Assembly: GCA_902541365.1 (NCBI GenBank)
Contig: CACBQK010000007.1
Coordinates: forward strand, 1 to 49,450
Source of the DNA: an uncultured SAR86 cluster bacterium
GTDB taxonomy: Bacteria > Pseudomonadota > Gammaproteobacteria > Magnimaribacterales > D2472
DNA length: 49,450 nucleotides
Direction of reading: 5' to 3'
Below, one piece after another: positions 1 through 24,525 of this stretch. Position numbers and translations under genes: made by a program. The first letter of the stretch is position 1; each line of letters starts with the position of its first letter. The notes under the pieces are model-generated. The model had not been told where the DNA came from. It did not search any database and worked only from the letters and a program-made list of their open reading frames with translations.

Positions 1-611
1 GCTGTTTTAATGCCAAAAAAATCTACATTCGAACTATTCTTTAGGCCATAATCTTGATCAATGGCATAAAGAACAGTTTTATTTTTCTTGAGCCATTTAA
101 TGAATGTAATTGGTGAATTTTTATCAGCGAGAGCATTAACCCCTTTCAATCTTCCCATGCTTTGTACTTTCTGCATGAAGGGTGAGTTATGTGCTCTTTC
201 TACCCCGTAAAGCTCACAATGCATTCCGAGTATTCTTGAGTCCAGCTCTAAATGATGAGAGTGTTTAAAAATGAGAAGTTTGCCTTTGGTTGCAATAAGT
301 TTATCTAAACCAAATATTTCATATTTAATTAAAGAATTTATCTTTGAATCACTCCAAAACCACGCTTTACCAGTATCAAATATTCCACGAATCATCGACT
401 TTAGATTTTTATTAAAAAGATTTATTTTTTCCTGCTTATTCAAGTAAGGAAAAGCAGCATCAATATTTTTTCTACTAAAAATATTTCTTTTAAGGTTGGG
501 GTTTTTTAGAAAAGAAAATAAAATATTTGCTAAAACATTTTGAAAGTTTATTGGAAAAGCAACAATTAGCTTCCAAAAAAATACGCCTATCTTTTGATTG
601 ATAAATTTCAT
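1..611 (-). CDS. Lipid A biosynthesis (LpxL/HtrB-family) acyltransferase, partial at window edge
   Basis: Reverse-strand reading frame open from ATG at 611 to the window edge: MKFINQKIGVFFWKLIVAFPINFQNVLANILF...KLLIFKHSHHLELDSRILGMH, with an HX4D-type acyltransferase motif; next to waaA. Missing from the ORF track because its stop lies outside the window. Confidence 0.8.
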   Translation of the reverse strand, partial: MKFINQKIGVFFWKLIVAFPINFQNVLANILFSFLKNPNLKRNIFSRKNIDAAFPYLNKQEKINLFNKNLKSMIRGIFDTGKAWFWSDSKINSLIKYEIFGLDKLIATKGKLLIFKHSHHLELDSRILGMHCELYGVERAHNSPFMQKVQSMGRLKGVNALADKNSPITFIKWLKKNKTVLYAIDQDYGLKNSSNVDFFGIKT

Positions 612-21456: not shown

Positions 21457-22332
21457 CTAATTTGATTTGCTATCTAATATCATTTGACCGTCTTCAACAA
21501 ATCCATGCCCTTTAACAACCAAATCAACTGTTCCAGGAATACCAGAAATCCATAATCCCTCTTCAAGATCTTCAACAATATATATTGGAACAAACCTAAT
21601 AATATTTTCAGAATCTAGAACTTTTACTCCGATATTTCCTGAATCGTCAAGATCAAGAATCGATGGTGAAATCTTATGAGACAAAATTGCATCAGTTTGT
21701 ATAGTAATTGTAGAGGTAACTCCATCTTTTATAGCCCCCAAAGGATTACTAATCTCGCTCTCAACCCTGAATGTTTTTGTTTGAGGTGAAGCACTTTTAG
21801 AGACGAATGAGAGTTTTCCCTCAATTTTTTCCCCTGTAATCAATTCGATTAAGACTTTTTGGCCAACTTTTACATCGGCGATCCTTATTTCTGGGATTTC
21901 GGCAATAAACTTAATTGGATCTAAATCAATGATAGTTGCACAAACTTGACCTCTATCAAGAAAATTTCCAGGCTTTACTATAGATTCGATATAGCCACTA
22001 AAAGGAGATTTAACTTCAGTTCTATTAAGTTCAACAATGCCCAGTTTACAAAGAAGAGAATCCTTTTTTACAAAATCTCCTTCCTTTGCTCCAATCTCTA
22101 CAACTTCTCCAGTTGTTTTTGCTTTTACAGCAACTCTTCTTTCGGAGTTACTTGTAGCTTTGAGTTTAATTGATGGACTAAACATGGTGGGAGTGCTTTT
22201 TCTTATTTCTATGGAAGCAGCATTATTATCTTCTACAAGAGTTGGCCCTTTTTCTTCTACAAATATTCCCGAAAGCATCCAGAAGATGATCGGGATGATT
22301 ATGTATAGGGAAATTCTAACGTTTTGATTCAT
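21457..22332 (-). CDS. RND efflux periplasmic adaptor subunit
   Basis: 291 aa; N-terminal TM, lipoyl-like KTTGEVVEIGAKEGDFVKKDSLLC ... VKSPFSGYIESIVKPGNFLDRGQ. Confidence 0.9.
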   Translation of the reverse strand: MNQNVRISLYIIIPIIFWMLSGIFVEEKGPTLVEDNNAASIEIRKSTPTMFSPSIKLKATSNSERRVAVKAKTTGEVVEIGAKEGDFVKKDSLLCKLGIVELNRTEVKSPFSGYIESIVKPGNFLDRGQVCATIIDLDPIKFIAEIPEIRIADVKVGQKVLIELITGEKIEGKLSFVSKSASPQTKTFRVESEISNPLGAIKDGVTSTITIQTDAILSHKISPSILDLDDSGNIGVKVLDSENIIRFVPIYIVEDLEEGLWISGIPGTVDLVVKGHGFVEDGQMILDSKSN

Positions 22333-22358: not shown

Positions 22359-22781
22359 CTAGATTTGGTGTTTTTTTCTCAGTTTTTCAAGAGTATCGAG
22401 ATCAAATCTATCAAAATCCTCATCCGAATAATCATTTAGTTCCTGAAAATCTGATAGCTTTGCTTCTTCACAACATTTTATGAAGTCAGATAATGTTGGT
22501 AAAAAGTCATTCTTGGCCACAACTTTAAGTATTGCGTCCTTGATATGGTGATTTTCAAATCTTTTTAGACTCATAGCCCAAAGCTTTTTGCCTTCTTTTA
22601 GCCTCTCATCATCACCAAAGACTTTATAGAACTGATAATGATAGGACATTTCAAGTTTCAGGAATAAATCATCAATAAGATTTATGAAATCTTGATCAAG
22701 CTTTTTTTTACTCGATTTCTTCTGCCCAAGACTGGTCACTTTTTCTTTCTTTGAATGTTTTGGTGAATTTTCCTGGCTCAT
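22359..22781 (-). CDS. Lambda P-like replication protein (putative helicase-loader family)
   Basis: ORF track start 22802 is TTG; ATG at 22781 preferred. KKLWAMSLKRFENHHIKDAILKVVAKNDFLPTLSDFIKCCEEA resembles the W...I..A...P.SLPEF...C core of phage replication protein P. Confidence 0.6.
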   Translation of the reverse strand: MSQENSPKHSKKEKVTSLGQKKSSKKKLDQDFINLIDDLFLKLEMSYHYQFYKVFGDDERLKEGKKLWAMSLKRFENHHIKDAILKVVAKNDFLPTLSDFIKCCEEAKLSDFQELNDYSDEDFDRFDLDTLEKLRKKHQI

Positions 22782-23472
22782 TTTTACTATTATAACTCCC
22801 AATCTCTTTTCTTTTCACAAAATCAACAAATTTAACGTTCCATGTTTTTAATGCAGCTCCATTATCCTTCCAAAAAAGAATAAATTCACTCAGGTAGCTC
22901 AGAGCAGTATCTTTTTTAATTTCTGATAACTCAAGGATATCAAGAGCTGAACTACTTGGTATCCAATCGTCAGCCATAGTATGAGGCATGCCTTTATTTT
23001 TTGAATTGAATTGCACCCATTCTTTTCTTATGTAGTTTATAAAAACAGAGTTCCAATTATCTTTTTGTACCCTCTTTTCTTTCCAATAAATCCTGAATTC
23101 TTTAAGCTTTAAAGAAGCAAAATCTAAGTCAATTCCACCAAGCTCAAGAACCTCAATAGCCTCTCTTGAAGGCTCCCAGTCAGAATCTAATATATTTGAT
23201 TTATCTGATTTGGATCTTTGCGGCAACTTTAGCTTATCCTTACTGTATTTATTAGACTTAATTTTAATCAATCCGAGGCTGGCAATCTTTTCAATGCTGC
23301 TAACTATTTTTCTCTCTTCCATAAAAGAGAATTTCTCTAAAATAATTTCTGCAATATCTTCTATCGAACTTGATGAAATCTTATTGTCTTCAATGAATTT
23401 AAGAATAACTGCAGCTTCTACACCAATTGTATCAGCAACATCTTTTGAAAAAGAAAGATTATCTGACTCCAC
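22708..23472 (-). CDS. Tandem DnaT-like ssDNA-binding-domain protein with N-terminal winged-helix-like region
   Basis: 254 aa, GTG start; two DnaT-type repeats: DSDWEPSREAIEVLELGGIDLDFASLKLKEFRIYWKEKRVQKDNWNSVFINYIRKEW and ADDWIPSSSALDILELSEIKKDTALSYLSEFILFWKDNGAALKTWNVKFVDFVKRK. Confidence 0.72.
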   Translation of the reverse strand: MESDNLSFSKDVADTIGVEAAVILKFIEDNKISSSSIEDIAEIILEKFSFMEERKIVSSIEKIASLGLIKIKSNKYSKDKLKLPQRSKSDKSNILDSDWEPSREAIEVLELGGIDLDFASLKLKEFRIYWKEKRVQKDNWNSVFINYIRKEWVQFNSKNKGMPHTMADDWIPSSSALDILELSEIKKDTALSYLSEFILFWKDNGAALKTWNVKFVDFVKRKEIGSYNSKNEPGKFTKTFKERKSDQSWAEEIE

Positions 23473-24525
23473 CTAGCTCTTTGATCTCCTTGCTTGAACA
23501 GCCGAGGAGAGCTCTGAAAGACATTGTTTTGTATCTTCGAAGTGAATGCATGCATCTGTAACACTTTGTCCATATTCCAAATCTTCACCAATCTTCTGAT
23601 TACCTTCTCGTAAGTGACTTTCTATCATTACTCCTCTAATTTCATTCATACCATCAGATATTTGCTTAGATACAACTCCGATATTCTCAAGCTGTCTTTT
23701 AAAGACTTTTTGACTATTACCATGGCTCACATCAATCATGATTGAGTCATTTGCTTTCGCTTCATTGAGCGCATCAATAGTTTCTCTTATATCATCTGGA
23801 TAAAGGTTTGGTTTGGTTCCACCTCTGAGAATGATATGTGTATCTGAGTTTCCAGATGTCTTATATATAGAAACCATTCCTTCTTTAGTATTAGAAAAAA
23901 ATACATGTGAATGATTTGAAGCTTTCATACCATAAATAGCTGGATTTAAATCGCCCGTCGTTCCATTTTTAAAGCCGATTGGACATGAAAGTCCTGATGC
24001 CAACTCTCGATGAATCTGACTTTCAGCAGTTCTTGCTCCAATGGCACCCCATGAAATAAGATCAGCGACAAACTGAGGAGAAATCGGATCAAGAAACTCT
24101 GTGCCAACAGGAAGTCCAAGCTGAGAAATCTTATGAAGTATAGATCTTGCAAGAAAAAGCCCTTTATTTGCATCAAAAGTATTATCCATATCTGGGTCAT
24201 TAATAAGACCTTTCCAGCCAATGCTTGTTCTTGGTTTTTCAAAATAGACTCTCATAATCAAAAGAATATCTTCTTCATATTTTTTCTTTTCATCAATTAA
24301 AAGTTTTGCATATTCTTCAGCCGAATCCGGATCATGAATTGAGCAGGGACCAACTACAGCTATTAATCTGTCGTCTTTACCATGCAGTATTTGACTTACC
24401 TCATTTCTAGTTCCATATACTAGTTTAGATATCTCATCAGTTAGAGGATATTTTGAGATCACATCATTAGGAGTAACTAAATCTACTTTGTCAATTATTC
24501 GGGTATTGTCAGTTGAGTAATTCAT
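23473..24525 (-). CDS. aroG: 3-deoxy-7-phosphoheptulonate synthase (class I, AroG/F/H type)
   Basis: 350 aa; VVGPCSIHD, MRVYFEKPRTSIGWKGLINDP, GARTAESQIHRELASGLSCPIGFKNGT. Confidence 0.95.
   Translation of the reverse strand: MNYSTDNTRIIDKVDLVTPNDVISKYPLTDEISKLVYGTRNEVSQILHGKDDRLIAVVGPCSIHDPDSAEEYAKLLIDEKKKYEEDILLIMRVYFEKPRTSIGWKGLINDPDMDNTFDANKGLFLARSILHKISQLGLPVGTEFLDPISPQFVADLISWGAIGARTAESQIHRELASGLSCPIGFKNGTTGDLNPAIYGMKASNHSHVFFSNTKEGMVSIYKTSGNSDTHIILRGGTKPNLYPDDIRETIDALNEAKANDSIMIDVSHGNSQKVFKRQLENIGVVSKQISDGMNEIRGVMIESHLREGNQKIGEDLEYGQSVTDACIHFEDTKQCLSELSSAVQARRSKS

Follow-up and report, generated by a model that had tools for sequence, protein, structure and literature searches.

The window, by which we mean the whole stretch of 49,450 nucleotides that was analysed, comes from a SAR86 assembly of 1.02 Mb with a completeness of 91%, and its named homologues of 87–98% identity belong to SAR86 single-cell genomes and MAGs, bar one titled 'Pseudomonadota bacterium'. 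On the minus strand the genes follow each other in the order aroG, dopC-like, dopE-like, hlyD-type and acrB-type, with scpAB divergent (Table 1). As a preliminary description of this DNA had pointed out, no phage genes flank the pair in the window, where its neighbours are aroG, scpAB and the hlyD-type and acrB-type genes. In SAR86 the dopC/dopE pair is single-copy, and its locus is fixed across the order; aroG also lies upstream of dopC at other SAR86 loci, the HlyD-type gene is found there in the same order, and the aroG-dopC-dopE synteny is fixed in families f1 and f3 (SAR86 families are here numbered f1 to f4). Within the genus both genes are under purifying selection, with dN/dS values of 0.13 for dopC and 0.08 for dopE over 21 pairs. 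Since the sequences are conserved and distributed order-wide, the pair is not a chance resemblance. The overlap between the two genes, which is also present in other genera of the window's family, is of unusual length for a coupled gene pair, and the region 22708–22802 (74–95 nt) codes in two frames for the W-containing tail of DopC and the N-terminus of DopE. Iterons or an origin embedded within the pair, as in lambda O, were looked for as well, and just weak two-copy repeats were seen.

Table 1. Features of the dopC/dopE locus in the window (nucleotide positions unless marked aa)
Feature	Position	Strand	Remarks
dopC-like gene	22708..23472	-	254 aa; GTG start; 0 nt gap from aroG stop; ORF
dopE-like gene, truncated form	22359..22781	-	140 aa from ATG at 22781; lambda-P/G39P-type helicase-loader core
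Alternative dopE-like start	TTG at 22802	-	Product then 147 aa
DnaT domain 1 of DopC	22996..23190	-	PF17948 E=2.8e-16
DnaT domain 2 of DopC	22807..22980	-	PF17948 E=2.0e-15
DopE C-terminal tail	22362..22394	-	TLEKLRKKHQI, 11 residues; tail alignment, PSSM test
Overlap, dopC 3' end with dopE 5' end	22708..22781	-	74 nt, different frames; from coordinates
aroG (DAHP synthase)	23473..24525	-	Conserved upstream neighbour; PF00793
HlyD-type membrane fusion protein gene	21457..22332	-	Conserved downstream neighbour; PF16576
DopC protein parts	aa ~5-72; 95-159; ~165-222		Winged-helix-like N-terminus; DnaT domain 1; DnaT domain 2; C-terminal tail ending QSWAEEIE

The preliminary description had assigned, by eye, a winged-helix-like region and two DnaT-type domains to the 254-aa reading frame directly behind aroG, and a likeness to lambda P to the small reading frame that follows; the two family calls, DnaT and lambda P, hold in profile searches. 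In a Pfam profile search DopC contains two copies of PF17948 (E=3.4e-32 for the protein as a whole; 110 bits, cut-off 25), and it matches the replication initiation proteins of PHROG 1408/1032; an NCBIfam search gave no family match, and no phage relatives of DopC were found by tblastn. That the N-terminus is winged-helix-like is supported by a weak match to PHROG 11233 (E=0.0025), by the helical layout of the AF2 model (mean pLDDT 78) and by weak Foldseek matches of this model to Fur/PadR winged-helix proteins, next to a match to DnaT 6aeq. The number of DnaT copies varies among DopCs, with two in f1, f4 and f3 (L030) and three in f2 and in genomes G114 and G156. Both DnaT domains of the window's protein carry the aromatic ssDNA-contact motif F-x-x-Y/F-W, as F126/Y129/W130 and F197/F200/W201 for F124/Y127/W128 of E. 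coli DnaT, with Y changed to F in the second domain, and the basic residues are kept in part only. For DnaT, a double mutation of the base-contacting aromatic pair nearly abolished binding (PMC4132743), and, judging from the conservation of this pair in both domains, DopC would hold ssDNA.

The truncated DopE of the window matches the PHROG 109 family 'P-like helicase loader' with E=4.9e-8 and our family profile A1 with E=2.6e-45. Its match to Pfam PF06992 (E=0.0013, 19 bits) lies under the gathering cut-off, which is exceeded by the full-length SAR86 homologue L019 (27.7 bits against a cut-off of 26, E=2.7e-6; PHROG 109 E=1.1e-13). Full-length DopE, of ~190–230 aa, occurs in other genera of the window's family and in family f3, and has a block 'WSHPIVYFAGKKxGW' preceding the C-terminal tail. 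In the window's genus (140–147 aa) the middle block is gone and the core and the last 11 residues are retained; G114, which belongs to a different family of the class, likewise has a short DopE (169 aa). For the AF2 model of a full-length DopE (mean pLDDT 80) the four best PDB matches in Foldseek were lambda P in its complex with DnaB (9oa1 chains Y, Z and V, with a probability of 1.00 and E-values of 0.003–0.025 that are marginal for a helical protein) and SPP1 G39P (1no1, TM 0.80 by target length), the latter also being the sole PDB match of the DopE sequence profile (E=0.014). The fold search supersedes a comparison of A1 with lambda P alone by hhalign (E 1e-4, probability 57%). Identity between SAR86 DopE and phage P is ~25%, over part of the length only.

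The preliminary description had proposed that the pair might be a domesticated loader system standing in for dnaC or dciA, and the distribution of loaders supports this for dciA. DopC is present in 92/101 SAR86 genomes and in 38 of the 39 near-complete ones. The PF05258 profile detects DciA in none of these 101 SAR86 genomes, against 221 of a class-wide sample of 274; the SAR86 absences are those of profile searches in incomplete genomes (MAGs and SAGs). DnaC was considered as the SAR86 loader and rejected, as the SAR86 hits of PF01695 are weak AAA+ cross-matches (best E=3e-10) in frames of 430–518, ~320 or ~800 aa with no DnaC-sized protein among them, and the best of these hits, which are DnaA-sized (430–518 aa), sit where DnaA is expected, at the start of chromosomes. 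Neither DopC nor DopE gave a match to PF01695 (AAA+ P-loop). PriA is present in SAR86. A DopC, DopE or DciA match was found nowhere in G033, an f4 genome in a single contig that is 93% complete, which points to a gap in the assembly or to one more loss. The best explanation of the sequences and the replacement pattern, and a well-supported one, is that the pair stems from phage O/P-type genes, was domesticated as a DopC/DopE module for helicase loading and probably takes the place of DciA in SAR86; that the whole order seems to depend on DopC-type modules is a finding new here. Helicase contact and loading themselves we infer from homology and from this pattern of replacement.

Beyond SAR86, matches to the DopE profile outside a phage context were confined to three genomes of the class, G114, G156 and G271, all without a DciA match. 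In the first two a DopC with three DnaT domains adjoins DopE. G156, a high-GC genome of 3.2 Mb from another family, also shows the aroG-dopC-dopE synteny (L071, L151), which suggests that the locus is older than SAR86. G271 encodes a fusion protein of 385 aa (L073, L153; 2371–3528 in L153) in which a lambda-P-like core follows a winged-helix-like N-terminus and precedes a basic C-terminal helix, located between a hydantoinase-like gene and a gene for an RpoD-type sigma factor; it constitutes a third arrangement of the loader module. An O/P-like pair or fusion accounts for only some of the DciA-less genomes of the class outside SAR86. All other P-like matches in the class, among which that of G122 is weak and partial, come from DciA-positive genomes. 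The P-like genes of G151 (three; L074, L079, L080) and G291 (L077) are paired with O-type initiators, and some adjoin phage-type repressors while some precede genes that do not look like phage genes. That the P-like genes of DciA-positive genomes are mostly found beside phage-type O and repressor genes would be in keeping with the idea that the SAR86 pair, too, is a conserved prophage remnant or an anti-phage decoy that has kept an O/P pair with no role in host replication; yet a single-copy locus fixed across the order, low dN/dS values of 0.08–0.13, the absence of DciA and the lack of phage neighbours all speak against this, and we consider it very improbable and strongly disfavour it.

A loader of the domesticated kind is already described. 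Brezellec reportedly proposed in 2017 that DopC/DopE, a chromosomal pair derived from lambda O/P, is a putative third type of helicase loader in bacteria without DciA and DnaC/I. The Cellvibrionales had been described the year before as devoid of both DciA and DnaC/I (Brezellec 2016, PMC5109545). Like DopC/DopE, the SAR86 pair consists of adjacent chromosomal O-type and P-type genes in a host without DciA and DnaC/DnaI. It differs in its host order, Magnimaribacterales, in the shortening of DopE in the window's genus and in the loss of DopE from two families that carry a tail on DopC. By its features and the replacement pattern, the pair is best filed as a SAR86 form of DopC/DopE. A limited literature search, which is weak evidence of absence, found no work linking SAR86 to DopC/DopE; as far as could be checked, the reduction series and the tail transfer described below are new. 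With phage lambda and other O/P pairs SAR86 shares the order of an initiator gene directly followed by a loader gene, and full-length SAR86 DopE shares with lambda P the PHROG 109 profile and the fold, but the window's DopE does not contain the middle block of lambda P, the SAR86 pair does not have a phage context, and the annotated lambda O is apparently no tandem-DnaT protein, unlike DopC. A pairing of DnaT with P also occurs in phage, in O157 typing phage 10. SPP1 G39P has a folded core like that of DopE but is distant in sequence and belongs to a Firmicutes phage. E. coli DnaT and DopC have the DnaT domain in common and differ in the winged-helix-like N-terminus and the tandem domains of DopC. 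DnaC of E. coli and DciA would share their task, DnaB loading, with the SAR86 pair; DopE is neither an AAA+ nor a DUF721 protein.

A mechanism can be proposed by analogy with these systems. DopC would act as the recruiter. Its winged-helix-like and DnaT domains would hold melted DNA or ssDNA at oriC or at forks marked by PriA, and its C-terminal tail, which is acidic and contains W, would bind DopE. As the adaptor, DopE may bind DopC through its folded G39P/lambda-P core and dock on DnaB through its C-terminal helix (LRKKHxI), so that DnaB is delivered to DNA; all these contacts, the opening of the ring, loading and the roles assigned to the tails are predictions. In the cryo-EM structure of lambda P with DnaB, the last visible segment of P, which was assigned to the C-terminus with a chain direction called tentative by the authors, rests against the linker helix of DnaB (PMC6391071); this linker/docking-helix module is the common loader site on DnaB (PMC9912922), and G39P recruits the helicase G40P once G38P has bound the origin (PMC5615212). 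Because of the position of the lambda P C-terminus at the DnaB linker helix and the order of recruitment by G39P, we take the DopE tail to be the putative DnaB-docking helix and the core the probable adaptor to DopC. The C-terminus of lambda O is also W-containing and acidic (TDWIYGVDL), and the W-tail of DopC may be the partner of the DopE core. The two proteins might instead serve only in PriA-dependent fork restart, with loading at the origin left to DnaA alone or to another factor. The presence of PriA in SAR86, the occurrence of DnaT domains in the E. coli preprimosome (PMC13377028) and the alignment of F124/Y127/W128 of E. coli DnaT (PMC4132743) with aromatic residues of DopC would all fit such a restricted role. 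Restart in E. coli, however, still requires DnaC, so that in SAR86, which has neither DciA nor DnaC, the sole loader-like protein would be needed at the origin too, and the winged-helix-like N-terminus of DopC is nearer to phage initiators than to E. coli DnaT. We therefore regard a role in restart only as unlikely.

In families f2 and f4, DopC is found at the same locus with no adjacent DopE. A search of eight near-complete f2/f4 genomes at E<=10, a set that included no positive control, gave no DopE, and a strongly diverged DopE core could still be present elsewhere in these genomes. A DopE-like tail is found at the C-terminus in 39/39 DopE-less DopCs versus 0/31 DopE-partnered ones, counts that come from related sequences in which the independent units are two lineages. 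All 31 DopCs of f1 and f3 end with the W motif (SWAEEIE, EWAVDIEN etc.), in all 20 of f2 a new tail, e.g. LKKLKEKHQI, comes after an SSW or similar W motif, and all 19 of f4 have a tail such as LREKYKI at the end; the SSW/SWA motif is gone from the f4 proteins and kept in f2. The new tails resemble the DopE C-terminus LRKKHNI. On a profile (PSSM) built from 16 distinct f1 DopE tails, the C-termini of f2 and f4 DopCs score 5.7 to 26.9 bits, against a maximum of -7.9 for f1 and f3 DopCs; as controls, 848 other C-termini encoded at the same loci reach 6.7 at most.

It is conceivable that these tails are unrelated basic C-termini with another protein- or nucleic-acid-binding motif, and that the true loader in f2 and f4 is another protein. 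Some room for such a coincidence is left by the shortness of the motif, 11 residues with many lysines, by the score of -6.4 that the lambda P C-terminus obtains on the SAR86 tail profile and by the low scores of most f3 DopE tails on it. Against it stand the position of the match at the exact C-terminus, its restriction to DopCs that have no DopE partner, the control scores, and the fact that tail presence tracks the loss of DopE in two lineages, which makes an unrelated tail the less plausible reading, at perhaps one chance in several. Apparently, then, two families have dropped DopE by moving its last residues onto DopC: with the docking tail placed directly on DopC, DopE could be lost, and an in-frame deletion joining the dopC and dopE 3' ends would offer a route to the fusion. 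In the tree of AroG+HlyD+AcrB, f4 groups with f1 (98/96), and a single clade of f2 and f4 is rejected both by this tree (p_AU 0.0003) and by the AroG tree (p_AU 0.005). Because the trees of the neighboring genes reject that clade, the loss of DopE and gain of the tail in f2 and f4 are taken as two independent events. A single origin of the tail, rejected by these two trees, is not rejected by the tree of tail-stripped DopC, which weakly joins f2 and f4 (56/67) and would mean one event of tail transfer. Published SAR86 phylogenomics (PMC11582366) joins Suzuki to CHAB-I-7 and Magnimaribacteraceae to RedeBAC7D11, and the flanking-gene tree fits this phylogeny if, as we infer from genome sizes, f1 is Suzuki, f4 CHAB-I-7, f2 Magnimaribacteraceae and f3 RedeBAC7D11. 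That the DnaB-docking tail of DopE has moved twice independently onto the recruiter DopC, leaving DnaB to be loaded by a single protein that is no ATPase and retains no loader domain, has in our estimation an even chance of being correct.

SAR86 are abundant ocean bacteria, of which a cultured isolate exists, HIMB1674; genome size and the published clade structure lead one to expect that it belongs to f2. Every bacterium must place the DnaB ring on DNA, and to our knowledge the DopC/DopE solution to this is so far a prediction only. From a whole DopE, through a DopE of core and tail, to a tail alone on DopC, the SAR86 modules form a natural deletion series, which suggests that a single short element makes the contact with DnaB and is relevant to the lambda P–DnaB structure with its tentative chain direction.
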